Assembly: GCA_003116975.1 (NCBI GenBank)
Contig: BGKB01000027.1
Location: forward strand, 186,001 to 250,000
From: Aurantiochytrium sp. KH105
Taxonomy: Eukaryota; Sar; Bigyra; Thraustochytrida; Thraustochytriidae
DNA: 64,000 bases
Reading direction: 5' to 3'
Under the pieces are notes generated by a model that saw only the letters and a list, made by a program, of their open reading frames with translations, ran no database searches and was not told where the DNA came from. Both the position numbers and the translations under genes were made by a program. Below, in pieces: positions 13,354-49,539 of this stretch; within the stretch, counting starts at the first letter, position 1, and each line of letters starts with the position of its first letter.

Positions 13354-14478
13354 ATGTTTCACTCATGGCCCGCCGAGTCGTCGACGGAGCGACAAGCTGC
13401 TCTGCGTCTCGAAGCCAAAAAGAGCGCCAAGGAGGATCGCCGCACGCGCTTCCTTGCATCCAAGCAGCGCGCTATCGGCATTGATGTGCACGGCCTCGAC
13501 CAGCAGCTCGAGGATAAACGCAGACGTGAAGAGGACGAACGACTTGCCAAGGCCGAAGAAGATGAACAAACCATCAAGATCGCCAACGCGCTCAAGGCAG
13601 CTGCCGCCGCCGAAGAGGCCGCGCGACGCGAGCACAGACACGGTCTTCAGGAGTACTGGACGCTGCAGCACAGAAACCGCATGCGCAGACCCGAGGCGGA
13701 CCTCAACGATCCCTGCATGCTCCAAAAGGACCGCGTTCCTACCATCGAGACCGTGGGCACAAGCGCAGCTCAATTTTTCGAAGGCGACAAGGAGCTTGTT
13801 GAACGCGCCGAGCTCGAGGAGAAAATGAGGGAGCAGCACGCCCTCATTGACGCCAAGGTTGCAGACAACAAGCGTCTTCTCGACCTTGAGGCCCAAGAGG
13901 AAGCCATTCATGCCCAGATCGTGAAGGAGCAAGTTCGTCTGCGTACCCAGGCCGAGGCTGAAGACGCTCGCAACCGCCGTGAGCACAACCTCGAAGTCAG
14001 GCGCACCAACGAGCGACTCGATGCTCTCCGCAAGGAACAAGCTCGCTTGCTACGTGAATCCGACGAAGAGCGCGCCAAGCTCGAACACATGACGATTTGC
14101 ACGTCCATGCATCTTCGAGAGGACCGACGTGAGCGCAATGACGGTCGAGGCGGCGTGCGTCAAGAGTGGAAAGGTATGACGCCAGCTCAACTTGCCGACG
14201 TCAAAAACGAGCTTGATCGTCAAGCCGCAGAAAATGCTGACTTGCGAGCCACCGAAGCCAAGGAGGAATGCGAGCTCGATGAGTCCATTGAGCGCATGCG
14301 TCAACTCGCCGTAAGAGAACAGCACAGGCGCGACCAAGAGTATCGCGACGATGCAATCCGCAGGAGACAGTTTCAGGAGTCTCAAAAGGCCTTTTATGAT
14401 TCGCGACAAAAGGAGCAAAAAGATTACGATACCGAGGTCCAGCCTGAATGGTGGCCTTTCGGTCGTTCTGACAGATAA
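13354..14478 (+). CDS. RIB43A-like flagellar ribbon protein
   Basis: This 374-residue, almost wholly helical, charged coiled-coil protein matches RIB43A/RIBC family proteins in length (~370-390) and in its conserved N-terminal block, where KQRAIGIDVHGLDQQLEDK follows a basic helix. The family forms a filament inside the doublet microtubules of cilia and flagella, near the protofilament ribbon. Conserved Trp/Tyr positions such as EYWTLQH and a C-terminal aromatic patch (EWWPFG) are visible. The start ATG is the first in frame after the (TTC)n. Single exon. Its presence implies a flagellated stage. Confidence 0.85.
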   Translation: MFHSWPAESSTERQAALRLEAKKSAKEDRRTRFLASKQRAIGIDVHGLDQQLEDKRRREEDERLAKAEEDEQTIKIANALKAAAAAEEAARREHRHGLQEYWTLQHRNRMRRPEADLNDPCMLQKDRVPTIETVGTSAAQFFEGDKELVERAELEEKMREQHALIDAKVADNKRLLDLEAQEEAIHAQIVKEQVRLRTQAEAEDARNRREHNLEVRRTNERLDALRKEQARLLRESDEERAKLEHMTICTSMHLREDRRERNDGRGGVRQEWKGMTPAQLADVKNELDRQAAENADLRATEAKEECELDESIERMRQLAVREQHRRDQEYRDDAIRRRQFQESQKAFYDSRQKEQKDYDTEVQPEWWPFGRSDR

Positions 14479-14777: not shown

Positions 14778-16724
14778 TTAAGCGCTTGTCGCAGTGAGTG
14801 CACCTGTTTGCGAAGGATGCGAAGGCCCCACTGCACCGGAGCCTTGTGACGGCGGAACGGCTCGAGAAGGTGCCGTTGCGGACAAAGAGGAACTGTGCAG
14901 GCTTTTCGTCGTCGTCTTTACGGCGCGCGGTGCTCGGGCGTACTTGGCAATCCACGGGTGCGTGGGCACGTCCTTGAGCTGCATTCGGTGATCTGGGTTT
15001 TTGCGCAAGAGCGCGCGAATAAAGTCTTTGGCGTCGTCGGAAATGCCATGCGATGGGAAACGCAAGTCAACACGCTTAATGCGCTGGTATGTCAGCGTCT
15101 CCGACTCCTCTTCAAAGGGCGGACTTCCAACGAGAAGCTCGTATGCGAGGACACCAAGGCTCCAGACGTCCACGCGGGCGTCGTGTTTCCTGCGCATGAC
15201 CGCTTCAGGCGCCAGATAGTCAATGGTGCCACAAAGAGTCTCGCGGCGCGTTTTGCTGTGAACCGACCAGCCAAAATCGGAAATGAGAACGGTCCCGTTG
15301 TGACTGAGCAAAATATTCTCCGGTTTGAGGTCGCGGTGAATGACATTCTTCCCGTGACAGTAGCGCAGCGCGTCTGCAAGGTCACGAATGTATGTTGCAG
15401 CGCGTGGTTCCGGAAAACGTTTCTTCAGCTTGAGTTCCTTGTACAGTTCGCCGCGCGAGGCAAACTGCAAGACGAGAAAAATTCGTTTGTCATCGTGGAA
15501 GAACGTAAAGAGCCGAAGAATGTGCTTGTGTCGCAACTGCGACTGGATCTCGACTTCGCGACGCAGCTGATGCTCGACGCCGGCCTTTTCCAGCTGCGAT
15601 TTTTGCAGGACCTTAATGGCGACCACAAAACCGCTCTTACGTTCGCGCGCAAGGTAGACGTTTCCAAACTTGCCCCTACCGAGTTTCCTGCCAATATCAA
15701 AGTCTTGCAGCGACCACACACGCGTCTCCTCGTCCTCGTGACCTTCCTTTTCTTCGTCGCCCGTTGCCTGGTCTCGCAAGTCCTTGCAAACCTCTTCATC
15801 ATCATCACGATTGCCGTCTTCGTTCGCATCATCAAAGATGCTTTCAGGCTGTCTTTGCACAGCCGAACAGTTGGCCTTGTTTTGCAGCGAGCCAACTGTG
15901 GCACCTTGGCTCTCTTCTTGAGGCATGCACTTTTTGCCGTGATCCACGCGGCAGGTCAAGGGGGTCAGCATGCTTCCCCGGCGACGAAAAGCTTGCACAG
16001 CAGTGGTGGCGCGAGACGCTTGTTCGGCAACATTGACGTTCTGGTTTTCATCTTGCTCGCTCGATTTTGTAACAGTTTTTGCCTTGGTCTCCACACCAGG
16101 CATGGCCTCCTCCCAGATTTGGCCCACGGACTTGGCAGTTCGCTTTTTGCGCGGAACTTGCTCGGTGCGTACGAGTTTCGCATGTTTGCTATCTTCGCTT
16201 TCATGAGTGTTTGTAATGCGAGAATTACTATTGGCCATCAATCCTTGGCCTCCCGCCCTCGCGCGAAGGGCAGTTTTAGCCGTCTTCCATTCGTCCGACC
16301 CGGGTCTCGCTGACGATGCCAAGGTTTTTGTGTGCAAAGACTGCGAAGTAAACGATGAAGATGAAGACGACGTCGACGACGACGACGACGAGGACGACGA
16401 CGACGACGAAGTCAGCCTCGGGTCATTAGCAGCCGGTGGTGTAATTTGGCGCTGCTTGCGCGGGACGCGCTTGGCGCCACCTCCGAGCTGCGTCTTCGCC
16501 TTGTCGCCGTTCGCGCGAGCAGACTTGGCGTCGAGCGCGCGTTGCAGGATCCCGCTGCGCGCCGTTTCTCCACCTTCGCTCGCCCAGAGGACGCCGAGCG
16601 AGGCCGGCGTCCTTGCCGACTCCCTGCGAGCGTCCGCGAGCCCGCTGTCCAGGACCTGTGCCGTCGTCGCTTGCGCCACGGACGGCGACGGCGACCTCGG
16701 GGACGACGAGGACGAGAAATCCAT
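14778..16724 (-). CDS. Aurora-family kinase 1 (long N-terminus)
   Basis: This Ser/Thr kinase has Aurora hallmarks: glycine loop [17 protein letters not shown] lysine, [13 protein letters not shown], and the Aurora activation motif RRETLCGT with the activating Thr kept. It departs from the usual PPE after the activation loop (DYLAPEAV). The residue that separates human Aurora A (Gly198) from Aurora B (Asn) is Thr here (RLFTFF). I use the ATG at 16722-16724, which gives 648 residues. The frame continues upstream to an ATG ending at 16940, but the extra 72 residues are Arg/Ala-rich. The N-terminal ~370 residues are disordered with a Ser run (~16360-16410). Aurora kinases act in spindle assembly and chromosome segregation. 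Single exon. Confidence 0.9.
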   Translation of the reverse strand: MDFSSSSSPRSPSPSVAQATTAQVLDSGLADARRESARTPASLGVLWASEGGETARSGILQRALDAKSARANGDKAKTQLGGGAKRVPRKQRQITPPAANDPRLTSSSSSSSSSSSSTSSSSSSFTSQSLHTKTLASSARPGSDEWKTAKTALRARAGGQGLMANSNSRITNTHESEDSKHAKLVRTEQVPRKKRTAKSVGQIWEEAMPGVETKAKTVTKSSEQDENQNVNVAEQASRATTAVQAFRRRGSMLTPLTCRVDHGKKCMPQEESQGATVGSLQNKANCSAVQRQPESIFDDANEDGNRDDDEEVCKDLRDQATGDEEKEGHEDEETRVWSLQDFDIGRKLGRGKFGNVYLARERKSGFVVAIKVLQKSQLEKAGVEHQLRREVEIQSQLRHKHILRLFTFFHDDKRIFLVLQFASRGELYKELKLKKRFPEPRAATYIRDLADALRYCHGKNVIHRDLKPENILLSHNGTVLISDFGWSVHSKTRRETLCGTIDYLAPEAVMRRKHDARVDVWSLGVLAYELLVGSPPFEEESETLTYQRIKRVDLRFPSHGISDDAKDFIRALLRKNPDHRMQLKDVPTHPWIAKYARAPRAVKTTTKSLHSSSLSATAPSRAVPPSQGSGAVGPSHPSQTGALTATSA

Positions 16725-17373
16725 CTCCCGGGACGCTCTCTTTCGTCTGCGCGCGCGCTGCGCCTCGCTTCGCTTCGCTCCAAACGCGACGAGGACCGGC
16801 CGCGTCCCTCCTGCGCGCCTCCGGGTTCTTGCAGCCCAACCTCTCGCGCGCGCCGCGTCCCGGCGGGCGGTGGTGTGCAAGCCAAGCCAAGCTAATCTAA
16901 CCACGGGGCTCGTTGGAGTTTTGGCGTTGACTTGACTCACTCACTCACCGTCAAAGTCGAACATTGCAAACAACTCGAAGGCCCGGACCCAAACGTCTAC
17001 TACCCAAACGTCCGCCGTGTATGATACTGGAACAAATGCTGGAGACGCGCATTGGCAACGCCAGCGACGGCGGCGGCGGCGGCGGCGACGACGACAATAA
17101 CGTCAAGAATACACACGAACACCTCAAGGCTTCGTGCAACGCAGCGCAGCGGAGAGCATCAAATTTTCTTGCGTCAGGTAGGTAGGTAGGTATACGTATT
17201 TCGTTTTCTTTCATGACACTGCAAGGGCTCGAGAGCACGCTCAACAGCCCATGCACGTGTGACGACAAGAAGACAAGCAAAGGAAGAAGAAAAAAAGGAG
17301 TCTGTTTGTGAATGTGTTGGTTTGCAAAAGAAAATGGAAGGTGGTATATGTATACGGGAGGATGGATCCCCAG
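16725..17373. other. Spacer between two Aurora-family genes
   Basis: This ~650-base spacer separates two head-to-tail minus-strand kinases. It contains a GGC/GAC triplet run at ~17069-17096 and a short (GTAG)n near 17178. I see no additional gene. Confidence 0.4.
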
Positions 17374-18441
17374 TCAAATGGGACCCACCTTGAGATGGAT
17401 GCGCTCGATTTCGTCGGGCGGAGCGTGCATGATGATCCAGGGGTGGTAGAGAATCTTGTGAATGGGCCACAAGCGCAGCTCCGGGTCGGAAACGAGAATG
17501 GAGGACAAAAGGCTCTTTGCTTCGGGAGAAATGTCCTTGGGCATCTCGTAGTTGCACATGCTGACGTTGGTACAAGTGTCGGTCTGGTCTGGCGCGACAA
17601 AGGGGGCGGTGCCGACAAGCATTTCGAAGAGCAAGACGCCCGTCATCCAGATGTCGGCGCGCTCGCTGTACGCCGTCTCTGCGACCATTTCCGGTGGGAG
17701 GTAGTCCACGGTTCCACAGAGTGTCTTGCGCTTGATTTCCTCCTTGGCGCGCGTTGAGTTGACAGACCAACCAAAGTCAGCCAGCTTGATGGAGTTGTCG
17801 CGCGCCACAAGAATGTTTTCCGGCTTGATGTCGCGATGCACAACGCCAAGCTTGTGGCACTGAGTGAGCGCGCAAACGAGCTGGCGAATTACGGCCGACG
17901 CGCGTGGTTCTTCGAACCTTCCCGAGGGGGAATTTTTGAGCTCTTCGAAAAGCTCCCCACCCGGCACATACTCGAGAATCAGGTACACGCGCTCCTTGTC
18001 GTGAAAGTAAGAGTACAATCGAACAACATTTTTGTGCCGGAGTCGATGATGAATCTCAATCTCGCGTTTGAGCTGATGCATGAGATCCGAGTTTTCAATC
18101 TCTTCCTTGAAAAGAACTTTCAATGCCACTACGCGCTTTTCTTTCTTGGTGCGCGCCAGGTATACATTTCCAAATTTGCCTTTGCCGAGACCGCGGCCCA
18201 CCTCAAAGTCGTTCAAACACCATCTCTTGCCGCCGCTGCTGCCAGGGCCGCCTTGGCTTCCAGAACCGCCCAAGAGACCACGCTTGACGTGCTCCGGGAT
18301 GTTGCTGCTTTGCTGCAGGTTCTTTTCCAGGATGCTCTTGGTGGTCTTGCCGCTGAGCACGTCGCTGTTGCTGCCTCGTCGGGCATTTCCCGTGGCCATT
18401 TCATTCTCGCAGCCTGCGGCAGCGTCGCCATCGCGCTCCAT
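17374..18441 (-). CDS. Aurora-family kinase 2 (compact)
   Basis: At 355 residues this is the shortest of the four Aurora paralogs. A ~75-residue Ser/Gly-rich head precedes a kinase domain with [29 protein letters not shown] and DYLPPEM. The activation segment is longer than in the others (an extra charged stretch, TRAKEEIKRKTLCGT) but keeps the activating Thr. The Aurora A/B discriminating position is Ser (RLYSYF). It is the most diverged copy in the C-lobe, with substitutions such as IWMTGVLLFEMLVG. Same strand as kinase 1 and divergent from kinase 3. Single exon. Confidence 0.9.
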   Translation of the reverse strand: MERDGDAAAGCENEMATGNARRGSNSDVLSGKTTKSILEKNLQQSSNIPEHVKRGLLGGSGSQGGPGSSGGKRWCLNDFEVGRGLGKGKFGNVYLARTKKEKRVVALKVLFKEEIENSDLMHQLKREIEIHHRLRHKNVVRLYSYFHDKERVYLILEYVPGGELFEELKNSPSGRFEEPRASAVIRQLVCALTQCHKLGVVHRDIKPENILVARDNSIKLADFGWSVNSTRAKEEIKRKTLCGTVDYLPPEMVAETAYSERADIWMTGVLLFEMLVGTAPFVAPDQTDTCTNVSMCNYEMPKDISPEAKSLLSSILVSDPELRLWPIHKILYHPWIIMHAPPDEIERIHLKVGPI

Positions 18442-19259
18442 CCTGTCTTAGACTTTTGGTGTAGAGGTAAGCAATATCGGGGAAAGACCCAATGGCTGCG
18501 TCTTGGTCGACTTTGCGTCAGCAAGCTTTCGCGCAACGTGCAGGCGCGGGATAGCGTTTGTTGTTATTGCGCGAACCTCGTCGCGACGTCCGATTCTCCA
18601 GGAAGGCTATCTCCTCGTTCGCTGCGGACCACGCGATCTCCACGAGCACGCACGCACGTACGCACGCACTTGCTCTCGCCTCGACCTCTTGCGTCTCGCC
18701 TGTCTGGCGAAACCACACGCGCGCGCGTACGTGGAGAAGCAGCGTCTTCGTTCGCGAGTCCCAGCGAGCGCGAGGTTGTCGCTGCAGCCTCGATTTCGCT
18801 CCGGCCCGCGAGCAGCAGGTCGAGCAGCTCTTTTCGCGACGAAGCTTCGTCGGCCGCGCGTTCCGCAAAATCCCAGACTCCCGCGCTCCCCGGCCTCGGC
18901 CGCGTCCTCGCCTCGGCCCGTCGATGGGCCTCGCCGCGACTGCAAAGCCTCCGCGCGGCCTCGAGCTCGAGGCTTGCGCACCACGTTTCGGGCTCTGACC
19001 CGGGCGCAACGGCGCGCTGCGGTGGCCCCGGTCCCGTACGCCGCGCACCCACCCTGCGCCCCTTCTGCACTCGCACCGGAATCGAGCACCATTTAAGTGC
19101 GCAACCCATTTTCGTCTGCGCCCTCGTGGTGCAAAGTAACAGACCTTGATTTGACATCCAGACCTCTTCGCTCGACCTCGCCGAGCCCGGGGCGGGCCAG
19201 AAGCGATCGGGTGAGCTCGCAGGCGCTCGAGCGAGAGGGGCCGTGCGGACGTTGTGGAG
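18442..19259. promoter_or_regulatory. Divergent promoter region between Aurora-family genes 2 and 3
   Basis: These 818 GC-rich bases separate divergent kinase genes. The minus strand is open through this region and on across kinase 3, but the resulting protein has no domain and mirrors kinase 3 codons. Short ACGC-type repeats occur at ~18648-18670. Confidence 0.4.
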
Positions 19260-20801
19260 ATGGAGTGGTCGGCGAAGAAGAGCGCGAGGAAGCCGTCGCG
19301 AGCGGCGCTTGCGACCATGTCGAGACCTCCATCCTGGGGTCTGCAAACGGTTGCAGCTTCGACACAGCAACATCAGGGCCACGGATACGAGCACGACCAG
19401 GCTCTTGATCACCAGCAGATGCAGCAGCAACAGCAGCAAATGCAAACGCAAAAGACGCTGACCTGGCGGAGTGGAACGAGGAGACGGAAAGGCTCGCGCG
19501 GAGACGCTGATTCGCATTACGGCGGCCAACACCATGGTGGAGAACCAGGTTCCTCGCTGCGACCTCGAAATGGATTGGACAATGATGATAAAGAGATGGA
19601 CATGGATGACGACGACAACTATATGCTCGCTCGAGACGAGGGTGACAAGGAAGTCACCGGCAACGGCGGCCGTTCGAGACAATACGCTGAAGCGGACAAG
19701 GAACAGTTCCAGCGCCAACCCCTGTCCACACCTATTCCCGCCCATCGCCTTGCCAAGGAGCGCGGCCCTCGAAGTGCGCTCAAGAGCGCAGAAGCAGCTC
19801 GCAAAAGGCTCCGGAGCACGCAGACCCCAGCAATAGGCCGGAACGGACACGCAGTCGGTCGACGCGTCTCGACAGACTCCTCGTCCGTCAACGAGAGCGG
19901 TGGAGATCGGCGGTGGACGCTCGAAGACTTCGAAGTCGGCCGCCAGCTCGGAAGTGGCAAATTTGGCAATGTCTATCTTGCTCGCGAAAAGCAAAGCAAG
20001 TATGTTGTCGCCCTCAAGGTTCTTGACAAGTCGCAGTTGCAGCGACAAGGCATCGAGCACCAGCTGCGAAGAGAAATTGAGATCCAACGCCAATTGCGCG
20101 ACCACAACATTTTGCAACTCTACGGATACTTTTTTGACGCGCGTCGCATTTATCTCATTCTCGAGTATGCGCCGGGAGGCCAGCTCTATGAGGCCCTCAA
20201 ATCGGCCAAACGCTTCAGTGAAACGCAGGCCGCGAGCTATGTGCGTCAGCTGGCGCGCGCACTTGACCACTGCCACGAACGTAATGTCATTCATCGGGAC
20301 CTCAAACCGGAAAACCTCCTGCTTGGCTCGGACAATGAAATTCGCGTGTGCGACTTTGGATGGTCTATCCATGCCCCAAGCTCCCGACGATCTACAATTT
20401 GTGGCACGGTACGTTTTCGCTGTCGTCGACGTGTATAATTTTTCTCTTTTTCTTGAGGGCTGACAGATGCATTGTATGCGTCAATTTTTGCTTTGAAACA
20501 ATTGTAGCTTGATTATTTACCGCCCGAGATGGTGGCCGGCGAAACGCACGATTCGCGCGTCGATAACTGGGGCCTCGGTGTGCTTGCCTATGAATTTCTC
20601 GTGGGCAAGCCGCCCTTTGAAGCGGCGAGCATGCAGCTGACATACAATCGCATTCTCAAAGGTGAACTCGATTTTCCTTCCGGGGTCTCGGAAGGGGCAC
20701 GCGACCTCATTGCCAGACTTTTGCGCAACGATCCTGCCCAGCGTCTCGACCTGAAAAGTGTTTTGCGGCACCCCTGGATTCTCGCGCATGCCCAAGCTTG
20801 A
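19260..20801 (+). CDS. Aurora-family kinase 3 (two exons, Aurora A-like Gly)
   Basis: Exon 1 is 19260-20408 and exon 2 is 20508-20801, joined across a 99-bp intron (donor GTACGT, acceptor TTGTAG) in phase 0, giving 480 residues. The intron falls inside the activation segment, exactly between CGT and LDYLPPEM. The join restores a complete Aurora kinase domain: [38 protein letters not shown]. The position equivalent to human Aurora A Gly198 is Gly (QLYGYF), unlike the other three copies. The N-terminus is Gln-rich and disordered. An internal ATG at 19317 is an alternative start. It is the only one of the four with an intron. Confidence 0.9.
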
Positions 20802-21262
20802 TCGACCTCCTGCATCGAGACGCACTACATTGGGAAACAAAGAGAAAGGCAAAAATCAACGGGAGTCGTTTCTCTGAGTCTTTCACGAAGCAGGGGGTGC
20901 AAATGAATTCTAAAAGATGACGCAGAGCGTCGACATGCCCCCTCGTTTTTCCATGTGGCACTTGATTTCTTAGATAAAAGAAAAGTACCATTCATCCATC
21001 GCAACAACGTGCTGGCTTTGAGCAAGTGATCAATCTATCTAACTCTGGAGCTGCTGCTCTCCGATGGGTCCTCCAAAGTAGTTTCTAGACCTTTGGAATT
21101 TCAGACTTGAAATGAAGTTCGCGACTATTTTATTGTTTTTGTTTTGTTATTTTTATATTTGCCAAAAAGTTCATTGCGCAATTTCGATGTTCGGTCTTTT
21201 GCAGCGCAAGTTGTGTCAAGGGCGAGGAACAAGCTTTAACCCCATCGACCAGGAGAAGCTGT
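20802..21262. other. Convergent spacer between Aurora-family genes 3 and 4
   Basis: 461 AT-richer bases with T-rich stretches at ~21125-21160. They hold the two 3' ends and no further gene. Confidence 0.45.
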
Positions 21263-22507
21263 CTACCTTGTGCTGACCTGACTCGGATTGTAGTTGCTGT
21301 AAGACTTCTTCTCGACGGTGGGCACGTTCTTTTTAATCCATGTGTGGTTCGGCACCTCGGTGAGCGGCATCCGATCGTCGGGTTTCTTTTTCAGCAAGCG
21401 TGACACAAAGTCGCGCGCATCCTGAGAAAAGTGTGCAGGAAAGGTGTAGCGTACTGCAAGGATGAGTTGAAAGGTGGCCTCCTGGCCTTCGGTCTCAAAT
21501 GGAGGCGTGCCGGCCATGAACTCGTAGGCAAGAACGCCAAGGCTCCAGTTGTCGACCTTGGCATCGTAAGATGAGCGCTCGACCATTTCTGGCGGCAAAT
21601 AGTCGAGCGTACCACACATGGTGTCGCGACGGCTTGCAGAGTGTGTGGACCAGCCAAAGTCGGCAATCTTGATCTCGTCATTATGCGTGAGGAGAAGATT
21701 TTCGGGTTTGATGTCGCGATGAATGACATTTTTACTGTGGCAGTATGCGAGAGCGCAGGCGATTTGTTTAATGTACTGGGCGGCGCGGCGTTCACGAAAG
21801 CGGCCCTTGCGCTGGAGCTCCTTGTACACCTCGCCGCGGGCCACGTACTCGAGGACGAGATAGATGCGCCTCTCGTCATAAAAGTACGTGTAGAGACGAA
21901 GGACGTTCTTGTGACGAAGGTGTGCCTGGATCTCGATCTCGCGCCGTAGCTGGTGCTCGACGTTGTTTTTCTTGAGCTGTTGTTTTTTCAAAACCTTGAT
22001 GGCGACAATGTACTCTTGTTTTCGCTCGCGTGCGAGGTAGACGTTGCCAAACTTTCCACTACCAAGCTTGCGTCCGATATCAAAGTGGTTGAGCGTCCAC
22101 CTCGAGCTGTTGGTCTCTTCAAAGGGGTCCACGGGCATGAGGCTCTCGCGTGGCTTCTTGCTGCGCACAGCGCGCTCGCTCGGGTCCTTGCTCTCGACTA
22201 CGACGTCGCTGATGCTCTTATCGCCACCGAGCTGGGGCTTGTTCTTGCCCAAGAGGCCATTCGAGTGACTGGCCATGCTCGTCGCTTTCGCGCCGGCGTG
22301 GTTTTGAGGAATGCGCATTGCGCCGCCCATTTTCGTCATGCGTTGCCGAGCCCCATCGATATCCTTGTTGATGCCCGTGGCATTGCCGTTGCTGTTAGCG
22401 CTGCTGCTGCTGCTGCTGCTGGAACTGCTGCTACTGTAGTTGCTCCTATCGTTCTCTTTGAGGCCGTTGCCCAGGCCACGAAAGTCCATTGTGTTCGCGT
22501 TCGTCAC
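21263..22507 (-). CDS. Aurora-family kinase 4 (most canonical)
   Basis: This 414-residue protein has a ~140-residue Ser/Asn-rich head with a poly-Ser run and a kinase domain very close to metazoan and fungal Auroras: [51 protein letters not shown]. The Aurora A/B discriminating residue is Thr (RLYTYF). After the kinase domain is a ~20-residue Ser/Tyr-rich tail. It converges on kinase 3. The first ATG (22507) and an internal one six codons later are both possible starts. Single exon. Confidence 0.92.
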
Positions 22508-33959: not shown

Positions 33960-35852
33960 ATGTCCTCCGTTGGTGAAGAGCGCTCCATGGCAGAAACCTC
34001 GTGGCTCGCCGTGCCGAACCTAGCGGATGAAAGATCAGCCTTGGCGTGGAGCGCTCGAATGCTCGTAACATCCATCGAGGACACCTGTCCGCCTAACGAG
34101 AGCAATGTAGCCATCGTACTCATCATATACATTTGCTTTGGCATCGTATGGATTTTCTATCTCATTGGCAAATGCATCGTGTCGAAGAAGGCACGTCAAG
34201 CGCCTGCGGCTGCGAAAAAGTATGAGAAGGAAACTGAAAGCCAAATGCTCACCAGCAACAAACTCTCCGCAAGCACCAAGGTGAAACGAGGCGGCAGCGA
34301 AGTTCAGGATCAAGCCACAAACATGGCCATCAAACGAATTCTCTTTCAGAAAATGAACAAAGGATATGTCGATGACGACGACGAGGAAGACGAGGACAAC
34401 CTTGCAAAAGCAAAGCAGCTAAGGAAGTCCAAAAAGAATCGGAAGCAGAAGAAACCGAGGCTCGCCAAAAATTCCAAAGGAAGTACGCACTCCTCTTCAC
34501 ACAATGGAGATGACGATGACGACGACGACGAGGGGTATATCGAGGAAGGGAACGTGAACAGCAAGAAACGAGTCGATCCAGGTCGAGAACCGTGGGAAAC
34601 GGACGTGAAGAAAATCAAGTTTGATAAGCGAATAGGAGCTGGAAACTTTGGCGAAGTCTGGACAGGCACGTGGATGCATTCCAAGGTTGCCATCAAGACC
34701 GTGATTCGGGGCATGGCAGACAACAAAGTTTTTGTTGGCAAGTTTGTGGAGGAAATCCGACTCATGAGTGAGCTGCAGCATCCCAACATTGTCATGTTTC
34801 TTGGTGCGTGCATCCAGCCCCCTCACATTTGTCTCATTCTCGAATACTGCGTGCACGGGAATCTTGTCGAGTTTCTCCAGTCGGCGCGAGAGAAAGACAT
34901 TAACATCACGATGCACCTCATTCTGAAAATTGCTCTTGACATTGCACGAGGCATCAAATATCTTCACGACAAAATGAAAATTATTCAGCGCGATATCAAG
35001 GGTCGCAATGTCCTCATTGATGAGAATCTCAATGGGAAAATATCAGATTTCGGGCTCTCCCGCATCAAGAACGAAGACGACGCAGGCCTTACGGCCTGTG
35101 GTACCCCTGCCTGGACCGCCCCCGAGGTTGTCCGCATGGAAGAGTATACTGAGAAAGTCGACGTCTATTCTTTTGCGGTTGTTCTCTGGGAGCTCATCAC
35201 CCAGAGCGAGCCGTACGAAGGCGAGGGCGGCATTCAGGTTGCCTATGCAGCGGCGGAGCAAGGTCTCAGACCGCCGATTCCCAAATTCACCCCTCCTCGA
35301 TACAGCCGGCTCATGCAAGAGTGTTGGGCTGACTCGCCCCACGACCGTCCTCACTTTTCGGACATCCTTGAGCGTCTCTTCCAGATGATGAAGGACGAAA
35401 GCAATCCATTCAAGGCTGCAGAGTTTTATTTTGGGACTAAATCGCAAAACTACGACCCGACCGAGATCGAACGCTTGCTCGACGACAACGAACTGTTTGC
35501 CGGTCTCTTTCACGAGGATTACTCGGCGATTGTTGAAGAGCGCAAGGAGCTTCGCCGTCAGGAACTTGAGCGATCGAACTCGCTCAAGAACAAGAGCGCT
35601 GAGTCTGCAGTGGTCCTTCCGGCGTCGAATAAGGCGACAATTATGGGCTCTCTCATGCCACTCCATCTGAAAAAGCCAAGCACTGTCGAGCTCGAAATCG
35701 AGCATATTGACAATAGCGAAGAGTCTGTCACCCCAGCGAAGAGCGACATCAAATTGATTGATGCAGACGTCGTCGAAGCACCAAGTCTCGACGGGACGGA
35801 AGAGAAGGACCCAATTGACACGACGGACACGACAGGGGAGGGGAAAAGTTGA
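33960..35852 (+). CDS. Membrane-anchored TKL (Raf/DRK-like) kinase with QRD catalytic loop
   Basis: 630 residues. One membrane segment lies at ~50-70 after a short N-terminal region, followed by a basic/acidic linker and a TKL kinase domain (~220-490). The glycine loop is GAGNFGEVWTG, VAIK supplies the beta-3 Lys, and DFGLS and GTPAWTAPE are intact. The catalytic loop reads IIQRDIKGRN, with Gln343 replacing the HRD His, while the catalytic Asp and Asn remain. The protein may therefore be active but with altered regulation. The C-terminal ~140 residues are charged and disordered. TKL kinases of protists act in stress and developmental signalling. There is no signal peptide, so the topology is likely a single anchor with the kinase in the cytosol. 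Confidence 0.88.
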   Translation: MSSVGEERSMAETSWLAVPNLADERSALAWSARMLVTSIEDTCPPNESNVAIVLIIYICFGIVWIFYLIGKCIVSKKARQAPAAAKKYEKETESQMLTSNKLSASTKVKRGGSEVQDQATNMAIKRILFQKMNKGYVDDDDEEDEDNLAKAKQLRKSKKNRKQKKPRLAKNSKGSTHSSSHNGDDDDDDDEGYIEEGNVNSKKRVDPGREPWETDVKKIKFDKRIGAGNFGEVWTGTWMHSKVAIKTVIRGMADNKVFVGKFVEEIRLMSELQHPNIVMFLGACIQPPHICLILEYCVHGNLVEFLQSAREKDINITMHLILKIALDIARGIKYLHDKMKIIQRDIKGRNVLIDENLNGKISDFGLSRIKNEDDAGLTACGTPAWTAPEVVRMEEYTEKVDVYSFAVVLWELITQSEPYEGEGGIQVAYAAAEQGLRPPIPKFTPPRYSRLMQECWADSPHDRPHFSDILERLFQMMKDESNPFKAAEFYFGTKSQNYDPTEIERLLDDNELFAGLFHEDYSAIVEERKELRRQELERSNSLKNKSAESAVVLPASNKATIMGSLMPLHLKKPSTVELEIEHIDNSEESVTPAKSDIKLIDADVVEAPSLDGTEEKDPIDTTDTTGEGKS

Positions 35853-46300: not shown

Positions 46301-46860
46301 TTTAGAGTTTGCTTTGGCTGGCCTGATAGACAGGAATCGTATGTTTAGAAACCGAGCGAACGATCGCCTCTCTTCGGCATGTGACTCCTGCGATTGGAAA
46401 GAAAGAGCTCTCGAGAAACTCGTCGACCGCCTCGTCGAGCGAGCTGTCGCAGCTTGTCGGCGCTGTCAGACCGCAGCGCACGCTCACCGCTTGCCTTTTC
46501 TATACCTTCTCCATCGACCAACCGTTCGAGCAAAGTGCAACCCTTGCACGCCCCGAGAAGCTCGCTCTTCTCGCGCACGATGCACACCATTTCTCGACCG
46601 CGGGACGTCTTTCGAACGCGCTTCAAGTCTTCCATCGATCGATCGATCGAACGGCCGGCCGGCCGGCCGTCAACGATCGATCGATCGAGCATCGATCAAG
46701 CAACCAAGCAACCAAGTAACCAATCATTCCATCCATCGATCGATCGATCAATCAATCTGCGTCCAACACCTTTTCTTTGAGCTCGGAACCCCGGGCGAGT
46801 TCTTGCGGCGCGGCGCGTCTGCGCTCGCGCGGCGGTGGATCCCCGACCGGGAGCGGCTGC
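43329..46860. other. 3.5 kb GC-rich, repeat-rich region without a confident gene
   Basis: Visible structures are a (GGTTGCTT)n array at ~43649-43700, a run of 14 C at 45006-45019, a 51-bp tandem duplication at 45068-45169, GGAGG runs to ~45205, a degenerate (GGAT)n at ~45845-45905, a (GGACA)n at ~46105-46135, GAGCCGC repeats at ~46258-46282 and dense GATCGATC/GGCC blocks at ~46625-46755. Several frames are open on both strands because stop codons are rare at this GC content. None contains a recognisable domain. Confidence 0.5.
45068..45169. repeat. 51-bp tandem duplication
   Basis: Two near-identical 51-bp units start at 45068 and 45119, each beginning GGCGGCCGCAAGAATAGAAT. They differ at only two or three bases. 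A G-rich (GGAGG)n tract follows. Confidence 0.85.
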
Positions 46861-46871
46861 GCGGCGAGGAG

Positions 46872-47430
46872 GCCGAAAGCGCTGAGGGGATCGGGTCCTG
46901 GAGCGCGAGGATGACGCCGCGACGAAGAAGCAAAAGCTAGATCCGGAGAAGCTGCAAGACCATTTCCGAGCGCTGCCGCTCGGAACTACGGAATGCGCCG
47001 CGTCGTCCGAGGCGTGAGACCACGTCACGGCGGTTGGCGGCTTCGCTGGCCAAGAATGGCGCTTTGTTGGCGACTGCCTGGCGCAGAAGAATCGGTGGGC
47101 CTCGCCGCCGCGCCTGGTGGCGAACAAGTACACGTACCAGGGAGTTGGGCAAGCTCGATGCGTGAGTGCGGGGCCGATCGCCATCGAGTCAAGAGCAAGA
47201 AAGGCGAGCGGGAGGGAGAATGAACGAATTATATCACATTGTTCCTGCCGGTCGACTGGCAGCGGCACGATGGCTGACGCCTGACGCCTGAGAACGAGAA
47301 CCCGAGTTTGCGTGTGTGTTCGAGGCTCTCGTCCAACACAATTACACAGAGGCTTGACGAGGCTCTTGGGATCCTGGCCATCGAGTATACCGGTCCCATG
47401 GAGAACGCCGAAGGTCACCCAGGCAGTTGC
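46872..47430 (+). other. Coding-like fragments, unresolved gene or pseudogene
   Basis: One frame from ~46884 to 47163 has natural amino-acid composition and high GC at third positions but is cut by a single TGA near 47010. It reaches a canonical GTGAGT donor at ~47161. A matching acceptor (ATTACACAG, ~47350) opens a short frame that ends in TGA near 47429. This could be the 3' end of a spliced gene with one sequence error, or a decayed copy. No domain is recognised. Confidence 0.3.
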
Positions 47431-47457
47431 ACTTGATCGCACATGCTTCTTTCTCTC

Positions 47458-47532
47458 TTTGTTTGTTTGTTTGTTTGTTTGTTTGTTTGTTTGTTTGTTT
47501 GTTTGTTTGTTTGTTGTTTGTTTGTTTGTTTC
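47458..47532. repeat. (GTTT)n microsatellite
   Basis: About 18 near-perfect GTTT units with one TTG interruption near 47510. It lies ~240 bases upstream of the next gene start. Its translation gives a misleading CLFV repeat in an open frame. Confidence 0.9.
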
Positions 47533-47769
47533 CCTGGTGCTCATCGGCGGCCTTGCCTGCTCCCTTTGTTTGGCCTGCTGTGCAGGGTGTTCTTTGGCCG
47601 AACTGCCCTGCCTTTGCTTTGTCCAAGCCGTCTTTCAGCCTCGCGCGAGCATGCTCCGCGCCCTGCCCGCCCTCCCTCCGGCTGCGCGCGCAGAGGCAGC
47701 CGCGCTCGTCGCGCTGGCCAGCCTGAGTCGCGAGAGCGAGCCAAGCTGACTCGAAGAGCGGCAGCCGAA

Positions 47770-49539
47770 ATGCGCAAAGCCGCAACAGCTGCGACCATGC
47801 TGCAGGGCGCAGCGCGTCGCGCAAGCACGGCGCAGACGCGAGGCCTCGGCGCGCGCGTGCCGAGGCCCCGGCGGCCGCGAAGGCAGCTCGCCGCGCAAGC
47901 AGTCGCGCGCGATGGCACCTTGAGTCTTGGGATGGCGGGCGCGCGAATGCTGGCCACCGAAGCGGGCACCACGCGCGAGCACTTCCACAAGACTCTCGGA
48001 AAGGGCGCGGCGGCTGGGACGCTGGACGTGACCAAACCGCTCGAGCTCCTCAAGCTTTTTAGTAGCCGTATGCGCGAAGACGAGGGAAAGGAGGAATTGC
48101 GGGCCTTGAAGGAGGACCTTATGAACCTCAAAGAAAAAGCCTGTGACATCCCGACGCCACTCTCGTCCCGGCCCGAAGTCCGCAAAGCTGTCTTCGGCAT
48201 GCGCAAGGCGCAGACCGCATTCTTGCAACAGTTTCACCGCAGACTCAGCGAGCTCGAAAAGGCCTCCGCGTTCAAGCTCCTCGTCTTGTGGGAACAACAG
48301 GAACGAGGTTCCGAGGACGCATACAAGACCTTTGTGCGCGACATCATGTACCTAGAAAAGCAAATCGAACTTATCCATGATCCCAAGGAGAGAGCCATTG
48401 CGCGCATGGACTGGCGAAAAACCTTTCGTGCGTGGGTGGTCCTCCATCTTCTGCAGGACGAAAAGGTAATTGTTCATTTTGACAAGTCAAGGAACGCGAT
48501 GGAATTCTACGAGTCATCGTCATCAATGGACAAGATGCCACTCGTCTATGCTGCCATCTTCCCGGCATACCATGCCCTCATTCCAAACGCCGCCCCCGAA
48601 ATTCCCGCGCCAGACGACAGTGCAAAGTGGTTTCATGATCGCCTGCCCGTTGCCATCGAGCGCTCAGCAATCTGGATCAGCTCCTCTTTTCGCTCAGTCA
48701 AGGACCAAGAGACTTCCGTTGTCCTTCACGCCGTCTTTCGCTTCGCACTGGGCGCCATCGGTAAGCAGTTGGCACTTTCCCCCACCGAATTCGCAGCCGC
48801 GCTTAGCGAGGTTGCGTCGCGGGCTGTGCACGAGGTCTTTTGGCGGACTCCGGGCCCCAAGCGCTACATTGCACCGCACGCGGTTCCCCAGGTTGAATCG
48901 CACATCAACGCTCTTGGTCTCCCAACCACTAGCATCTATTCTCGTGGACCAGACTCGACACCCCTCAGTTTGCACCATGGCACCTACGCGTGGCCGGCCC
49001 CAGGCGCACCAGGCGTCTCTATTGATCCCAAGGCTTGTCACATCATCATGAGTCACATCATGTTGCGTCGTGAGGATGGCAGCATTGCGAGCTTGCCCTT
49101 TCGAAGTCGCTCAAGAGGACTTCACGCTACGGATGCCGACGACAATGAGGATTTATACAAAGGCGGCTCTCCAGACGACCGGCGATTTGTTTATTCAGCC
49201 ATTGCAGTCTCCTTTACAGTCCCAGTCGAGAACCGCACCCTCTTTGGCGATTTCCTGCCCGGGGTGCCCAAAACCGAAAACGTCGTCTTCAAAAAGCTTC
49301 TCACTGTGGAAATAGACTTGCCGCGAGACGTATTCCTCCCGCGCAAGGAGCTTGATTCGGCCAAGGGCTCAGGCGCCCTTCAACGAGCCCTCTACCCCGA
49401 TGGCGCAGAGGTCTTGAAGGATCGTGCGGACATTCTTGCTCCTCCTTTCAACGCCCGAGTCACGGGCATTTATGCGACAAATGAACCCACCGCACTCATG
49501 AATAGCGCGCGTTCCCTCTTACGGGCATCCCTCTCGTGA
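47770..49539 (+). CDS. Orphan protein, probable mitochondrial, 589 residues
   Basis: From the ATG at 47770 the first ~45 residues are rich in Arg, Ala, Ser and Thr and free of acidic residues, as in a mitochondrial presequence. The rest is a soluble globular protein. A helical part (~80-230) has long amphipathic stretches such as KEELRALKEDLMNLKEK, and a C-terminal part (~300-589) is rich in beta strands and prolines. I recognise no family motif. The frame is open upstream through the (GTTT)n tract, but that extension is repeat-derived. Single exon. Confidence 0.7.
   Translation: MRKAATAATMLQGAARRASTAQTRGLGARVPRPRRPRRQLAAQAVARDGTLSLGMAGARMLATEAGTTREHFHKTLGKGAAAGTLDVTKPLELLKLFSSRMREDEGKEELRALKEDLMNLKEKACDIPTPLSSRPEVRKAVFGMRKAQTAFLQQFHRRLSELEKASAFKLLVLWEQQERGSEDAYKTFVRDIMYLEKQIELIHDPKERAIARMDWRKTFRAWVVLHLLQDEKVIVHFDKSRNAMEFYESSSSMDKMPLVYAAIFPAYHALIPNAAPEIPAPDDSAKWFHDRLPVAIERSAIWISSSFRSVKDQETSVVLHAVFRFALGAIGKQLALSPTEFAAALSEVASRAVHEVFWRTPGPKRYIAPHAVPQVESHINALGLPTTSIYSRGPDSTPLSLHHGTYAWPAPGAPGVSIDPKACHIIMSHIMLRREDGSIASLPFRSRSRGLHATDADDNEDLYKGGSPDDRRFVYSAIAVSFTVPVENRTLFGDFLPGVPKTENVVFKKLLTVEIDLPRDVFLPRKELDSAKGSGALQRALYPDGAEVLKDRADILAPPFNARVTGIYATNEPTALMNSARSLLRASLS

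Follow-up and report, generated by a model that had tools for sequence, protein, structure and literature searches.

Four diverged Aurora kinase genes clustered within 8 kb in the thraustochytrid Aurantiochytrium sp. KH105

We analyzed a stretch of 64,000 nucleotides from the genome of Aurantiochytrium sp. KH105 (contig BGKB01000027.1, hereafter C27, positions 186001-250000; this whole stretch is called the window). The window contains, at positions 14778-22489, four Aurora kinase genes (A1 to A4) in the strand order -,-,+,-. The cluster is real and is conserved on both haplotypes of the assembly (76 Mb, 367 contigs). A fifth Aurora gene, A5, was found elsewhere; four of the five Auroras of this genome lie within 8 kb of each other. 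We consider it probable that these genes form a locally expanded Aurora family, either old or fast-evolving, whose copies have shared out the ancestral jobs between them. Judging from the protein sequences, such a sub-functionalisation is plausible.

Results

Aurora identity of the five kinases

A preliminary description of the window had assigned the four genes to the Aurora family on the basis of DFGWS and an (R/K)xTxCGT activation motif. This signature was seen in all four, the activation motifs of A1 to A4 reading RETLCGT, RKTLCGT, RSTICGT and RDTMCGT, respectively. The catalytic Lys (VAIK/VALK), the Asp residues of HRD and DFG and the activating Thr are retained in each of them, as had been claimed, within an activation segment of the form RxTxCGTxDYLxPE. 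A5 reads DFGWA and keeps the remainder of the motifs. A1 carries APE in place of PPE, while A2 has a few extra residues before the RKT of its activation loop, and an altered C-lobe. From these residues, the cluster kinases look catalytically competent.

The five kinase domains were then compared with the PDB, where all of the matches listed (60 per query, of about 2770-2800 each) were Auroras. Among these matches, A3 scored best against an Aurora A entry (402 bits), and the best scores of A2 were 284, 282 and 281 bits for Aurora C, B and A, respectively. Among the kinase matches listed for the genome itself (153 counted, the best candidates being scored), Auroras were 50-100% identical to the query and the other kinases listed at most 43%.

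A tree was built with the five Auroras, 14 further kinases chosen among the retrieved kinase loci of this genome (each represented by one haplotype), and three animal Auroras (the PDB chains of Aurora A and C, which we take to be human, and of Aurora B, presumably from Xenopus). The eight Auroras split from the 14 other kinases with a support of 100/98, which together with the Aurora-only PDB matches listed rules out a non-Aurora identity. The possibility that a copy might fall outside Aurora, for instance with PLK4, had been raised beforehand; none groups with the 14 kinases, which are unnamed and none of which is known as PLK4. A1 and A4 were sisters (99/97, and 94/95 in a tree of Auroras only). 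The longest Aurora branch was that of A2 (0.63), the branch of A4 measuring 0.27.

Other searches were of little use for classification. The NCBIfam library, a prokaryote library, returned 13-18 families per protein (for A3, exon 1 only), all below cut-off and without any Aurora model. A pattern search of viral contigs gave 63 stretches and no relatives. In prokaryotic genomes at least 585 relatives were found among 589 stretches; the 80 kept were 27-37% identical and prokaryotic by their titles, and they were not used.

Conservation on both haplotypes and selection

Many kinase loci of the assembly are found twice, nearly identical and on two contigs, which is what an assembly of both haplotypes would give. 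The second haplotype of the cluster is on contig C56, which carries counterparts of A1 to A4 in the same order and orientation as C27, with 94.3% identity over 4696 aligned bases and 95.3% over 4148. A5 is likewise present on two haplotype contigs, C1 and C60. Since the cluster recurs on C56, its placement is not due to misassembly, a concern expressed in the preliminary description.

The number of allelic residue changes in the kinase domain was 0/260 for A1, 1/267 for A2, 0/260 for A3, 0/259 for A4 and 0/337 for A5, whereas the corresponding dS values (substitutions per synonymous site) were 0.064, 0.071, 0.088, 0.062 and 0.050. As the alleles differ by no more than one residue despite a dS of 0.05-0.09, all five kinase domains, including that of the divergent A2, are under strong purifying selection. 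The N-termini are freer to vary than the kinase domains, with changes at 21/333, 1/72, 18/217, 6/126 and 4/82 aligned residues in A1 to A5. Conserved residues and selection together suggest kinase activity and a mitotic function.

Gene models

The coordinates of all features are given in Table 1. The four kinases are present where the preliminary description had placed them, and their order is confirmed by the gene models as well as by C56. Some details had to be revised. The end of the cluster, initially set at 22507, derives from a GTG located just upstream of the first ATG of A4 and is corrected to 22489. All four kinases had been called intact, which for A3 depends on the predicted splicing, and the fifth Aurora had been missed. 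A1, A2, A4 and A5 were modelled as single open frames. The start of A1 is the first in-frame ATG on both haplotypes, a longer GTG-started frame not being open on C56.

The first exon of A3 ends with ...RRSTICGT and is followed by a predicted GT-AG intron, after which the frame resumes with LDYLPPEM (the second exon matches C56:195277-195552 on the other haplotype). The interruption is 1 bp longer on C56. A coding stretch would thereby be frameshifted, yet both exons are in frame; we therefore consider the interruption to be an intron. This difference (99 versus 100 bp), the GT-AG borders and the conservation of the exons rule out that A3 is a broken gene. A3 and A4 are arranged tail to tail, with their stops 461 bp apart.

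Table 1. Features of the Aurora cluster and the fifth Aurora gene. Coordinates refer to the window unless a contig is named.
Feature	Position	Strand	Remarks
A1, Aurora kinase	14778..16724	-	648 aa; Ser-rich N-terminus of 335 aa; kinase domain at residues 336-595
A2, Aurora kinase, most divergent	17374..18441	-	355 aa; N-terminus of 72 aa
A2/A3 head-to-head spacer	18442..19259	.	start codons 818 bp apart; may be a promoter region common to both genes
A3, exon 1	19260..20408	+	N-terminus of 217 aa and kinase domain as far as ...CGT
A3, intron	20409..20507	+	99 bp, GTACGT...TTGTAG, phase 0; 100 bp on C56
A3, exon 2	20508..20801	+	LDYLPPEM... to stop; predicted spliced product of 480 aa
A4, Aurora kinase	21263..22489	-	408 aa; N-terminus of 129 aa
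A5, Aurora kinase (L040)	C1:214405-215682, counterpart on C60		425 aa

Divergence between copies

Kinase-domain identity between the copies ranges from 46.3% (A1-A2) to 62.5% (A1-A4), which rules out recent identical duplicates, in agreement with the preliminary description. Identity to Aurora A ranges from 49.2% (A2) to 65.4% (A3, the closest of the five). The paralogues are thus as distant from each other (46-63%) as they are from Aurora A (49-65%), suggesting either that the duplications are very old or that several copies are fast-evolving. Comparison of the different N-termini by BLASTP gave nothing better than an E value of 0.71. They are indeed unrelated, as had been noted. Their lengths, first given as ~75 to ~370 residues, are 72-335 residues in the present models. 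At the DNA level, a BLASTN comparison of the two haplotype regions (E 1e-10) revealed matches between different genes only for A3 and A4, which share about 118 bp at 76-77% identity, and hence no sign of recent gene conversion.

The fifth Aurora

Compared to Aurora A, A5 contains an insert of 33 residues between DFGWA and NRRTTMCGT and another of 42 residues after PPFE. The inserts fragment its alignments, so that A5 stands apart from other kinases in percent identity but not in bit score. In the search with A4, the N-lobe piece of A5 scored 186.0 bits at 54% identity, as against 186.8 bits at 37% for the next kinase; in the search with Aurora B, the corresponding values were 181.1 bits at 54% and 181.2 bits at 37%. 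We count five Auroras per haploid genome, in principle a lower bound as the search scores the best candidates. The activation segment usually tolerates little change. It seems odd that an insert of 33 residues lies within that of A5, yet the kinase domain is identical on both haplotypes.

Candidate partners

In human Auroras, a single position (Gly198 in Aurora A, Asn142 in Aurora B) controls the choice between TPX2 and INCENP, and Aurora A G198N behaves like Aurora B (PMC2806521). The corresponding residue is Gly in A3 and A5, Thr in A1 and A4 and Ser in A2, whereas the animal Aurora B and C sequences have Asn.

Profile searches detected the INCENP IN-box at one locus per haplotype (C129/C216, E 7.9e-18), in a frame of 1148 residues with RGSSGIWLKDG near its end. 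A TPX2 domain above the cut-off was also found at one locus per haplotype (C43/C193, E 2.4e-16 and 3.3e-16). The N-terminus of this TPX2-like protein contains WEFDCPQYTDF, which resembles the TPX2 motif that activates Aurora; PF09041, the family model covering this region, gave no match. None of 14 control genomes, those named being prokaryotes, matched INCENP, TPX2, PF09041, BIR or Borealin.

Regulation and neighborhood

Five upstream stretches were scanned for regulatory motifs. Compared with mononucleotide shuffles, the totals were 1 versus 0.5 for E2F, 4 versus 3.7 for CCAAT, 0 versus 0.9 for CHR, 0 versus 0.4 for TATA and 5 versus 6.2 for MSA, and no convincing cell-cycle motif was seen in the A2/A3 spacer. 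Four GC-rich 8-mers were common to at least four of the stretches (0.05 in the shuffles, which did not keep dinucleotides). In a degron scan, RxxL was common in all five proteins and uninformative, and a single KEN was detected, in A4.

A gene with a RIB43A domain (13354-14478, Pfam E 1.5e-33) directly adjoins A1. RIB43A is a flagellar microtubule protein, and the organism may accordingly make flagellated cells. The ciliary role envisaged for the kinases in the preliminary description found no support apart from this neighbor, a weak indication. A further kinase, outside the cluster, is encoded at 33960-35852; it scored 225.6 bits with the Tyr/Ser-Thr model and 184.8 bits with Pkinase, and is perhaps TKL-like. 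An adjacent opposite-strand kinase pair exists elsewhere in the genome (C191:19193-21360, C235:78675-80839), 30-34% identical to the Aurora queries, so that neighboring kinases are not peculiar to Auroras here.

At 46696-49539, two opposite-strand open reading frames start with TNKQ and LFVC repeats at their overlap, corresponding to a simple tandem repeat read both ways. Beyond the window, giant frames (C27:303609-314666 and C56:295285-306354; 5708 and 5831 aa) contain several stretches matching the PfaA model. A piece resembling this polyunsaturated-fatty-acid synthase reached 930 bits over positions 6-1035 on two haplotypes, below the cut-off of 1010. The remainder of the model matches other contigs, and below-cut-off matches also occurred in 11 of the 14 control genomes. 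For a eukaryote, such a synthase would be weakly indicative of a labyrinthulomycete.

Discussion

In the history that we favor, a mixed tandem expansion with inversions would have produced four diverged clustered paralogues and a fifth copy located elsewhere. All five, which purifying selection maintains, would be functional Ser/Thr kinases of the mitotic type, and the ancestral Aurora jobs would most likely be divided among them. The copy expected to pair with the TPX2-like spindle protein would be A3, which is the most conventional and has the Aurora-A-type Gly. One or more of the other copies, by elimination perhaps A1 or A4, may be recruited by the single INCENP as chromosomal-passenger kinase, while A2 and A5, in which the surroundings of the activation segment are altered, would be specialised. 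We infer activity, partner assignment, division of labor and the local origin of all four cluster genes from sequence comparisons. A stronger version of this proposal would have five non-redundant mitotic Auroras obeying a partner code unlike that of animals, with Gly (A3 and A5) directing kinases to the TPX2-like protein and Thr or Ser (A1, A4 and A2) to INCENP and additional roles without the Asn, in a cluster long kept and possibly co-regulated through the head-to-head A2/A3 pair. We regard this version as unlikely.

Several observations weigh against the proposed expansion and division of labor. The Asn of Aurora B (N142 position) is present in none of the five copies, and A1 and A4 do not stand out in their identity to Aurora B (A3 60.1%, A1 59.5%, A4 58.0%). 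The residue in the G198 column cannot by itself assign a partner, because yeast Auroras with Gly are Aurora-B-like; as these also lack the Asn, its absence here does not exclude INCENP binding (PMC2806521). A second pair of TPX2 loci lies below the threshold (C173/C20, 17 bits). PF09041 (Aurora-A-binding) and Borealin had no match in the genome and BIR (Survivin) a single one, below cut-off, but the 14 control genomes were equally silent, so that the absence of these families is not demonstrated. In the best tree, A1 to A4 are not one clade, and the deep branches are poorly supported. Finally, in the N-terminus of A5, dN (0.022, substitutions per non-synonymous site) exceeds dS (0.016) over 82 codons with few changes, and constraint on this region is not demonstrated.

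The duplications may instead be as old as the stramenopile lineage, the cluster having merely kept the copies together. This would explain why the paralogues are no closer to each other than to Aurora A and why the best tree nests the animal Auroras among them (83/85), and would agree with the four Auroras of the oomycete Phytophthora infestans and the three of H. arabidopsidis (PMC3019232). However, physical clustering points towards local duplication, and every major group includes a member with a single Aurora, indicating group-specific duplications (PMC3718339). Published diatom genomes likewise show one Aurora, the two genes seen in six diatom species being attributed to transcriptome errors (PMC10454807). 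Lineage-specific monophyly, proposed in the preliminary description as the sign of local expansion, was not recovered in the best tree, but it was not rejected either. Holding A1 to A4 together cost 5.7 log units, with a p value of 0.186 in the approximately unbiased test (p-AU), in a tree whose other Auroras were A5 and the three animal sequences, and holding all five together gave a p-AU of 0.101. Grouping A3, which is not with Aurora A in the best tree, with the three animal Auroras cost 1.2 log units (p-AU 0.284). The p-AU of 0.04 obtained for A1+A3+A4 should not be over-read, because larger groups containing them were not rejected. Nor did the Auroras-only tree resolve the deep branches, in line with the published statement that Auroras do not lend themselves to phylogenetic analysis (PMC3718339). 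A single local origin of A1 to A4 is thus neither demonstrated nor rejected (p-AU 0.19), and we consider the older, non-local origin possible but somewhat doubtful.

Alternatively, A2 and perhaps A5 might no longer be Auroras in function, having acquired other partners. For A2, the length of its branch, the altered C-lobe and the Ser at position 198 are suggestive, as are the two inserts and the DFGWA of A5. Both nevertheless group with the Auroras at 100/98 and retain the RxTxCGT loop and the catalytic residues, making such a neofunctionalisation rather unlikely. That the copies are redundant, kept for dosage or by chance and alike in substrates and places of action, appears less probable still. 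All copies indeed share the same catalytic and activation motifs, and distinct partners are few, each haplotype having a single INCENP locus and one TPX2-like locus above the threshold. On the other hand, the N-termini are unrelated, the residues at the partner-choosing position differ, the branch lengths are very unequal (A2, A4), and recent gene conversion, as judged from the short A3-A4 match, has left no sign. An assembly that keeps both haplotypes apart can create false duplicates, but an artefact of this kind, whether misassembly or haplotype duplication, can be dismissed, as the same gene set and order occur on two contigs differing by about 5% and as copies whose kinase domains share no more than 63% identity are not haplotigs.

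Comparison with known Aurora sets

Described organisms mostly carry one to four Auroras. Aurora duplicates arose repeatedly and are the standard case of one kinase divided between spindle pole and equator. In the open-access literature, we found no report on thraustochytrid Auroras or on a cluster of diverged Auroras. The genes described here resemble animal Auroras A, B and C in kinase-domain identity (48-65%), in DFGWS (DFGWA in A5), in RxTxCGT and in the catalytic residues. They differ from them in being five, four of them clustered, in lacking the Asn of Aurora B, in having mutually unrelated N-termini and, for A5, in the 33- and 42-residue inserts.

Oomycetes provide a parallel in number. 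P. infestans is a stramenopile with more than three Auroras and with many clustered kinases (66 kinases in 23 clusters of 2 to 13), although five Auroras are present here versus four in P. infestans and three in H. arabidopsidis (PMC3019232). One to three Auroras had been put forward as the eukaryotic norm; five is indeed a large set, but since an oomycete with four is on record, the count is less exceptional than claimed (PMC3019232). Adjoining Aurora genes are also known in Trypanosoma cruzi, in which TcAUK3 is represented by two tandem coding sequences that arose by duplication, their flanks being 98% identical (PMC6445472). In contrast, kinase-domain identity within the present cluster does not exceed 63%, and its four copies lie on both strands. 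The ARK1-3 kinases of Plasmodium and Toxoplasma are duplicates as well, encoded by three genes described as highly divergent; they are divided into an 'equatorial' and a 'polar' set, and the passenger complex was found in part (PMC10499817). Here, A3 keeps an Aurora-A-like domain (65%). With five Auroras per haploid genome, four of them linked, but just one INCENP and one clear TPX2-like locus, this organism is a natural setting for testing how kinases come to choose their partners when they outnumber the known scaffolds. The family extends an evolutionary pattern that is already well known and lends itself well to experiments; it does not represent a new kind of system.

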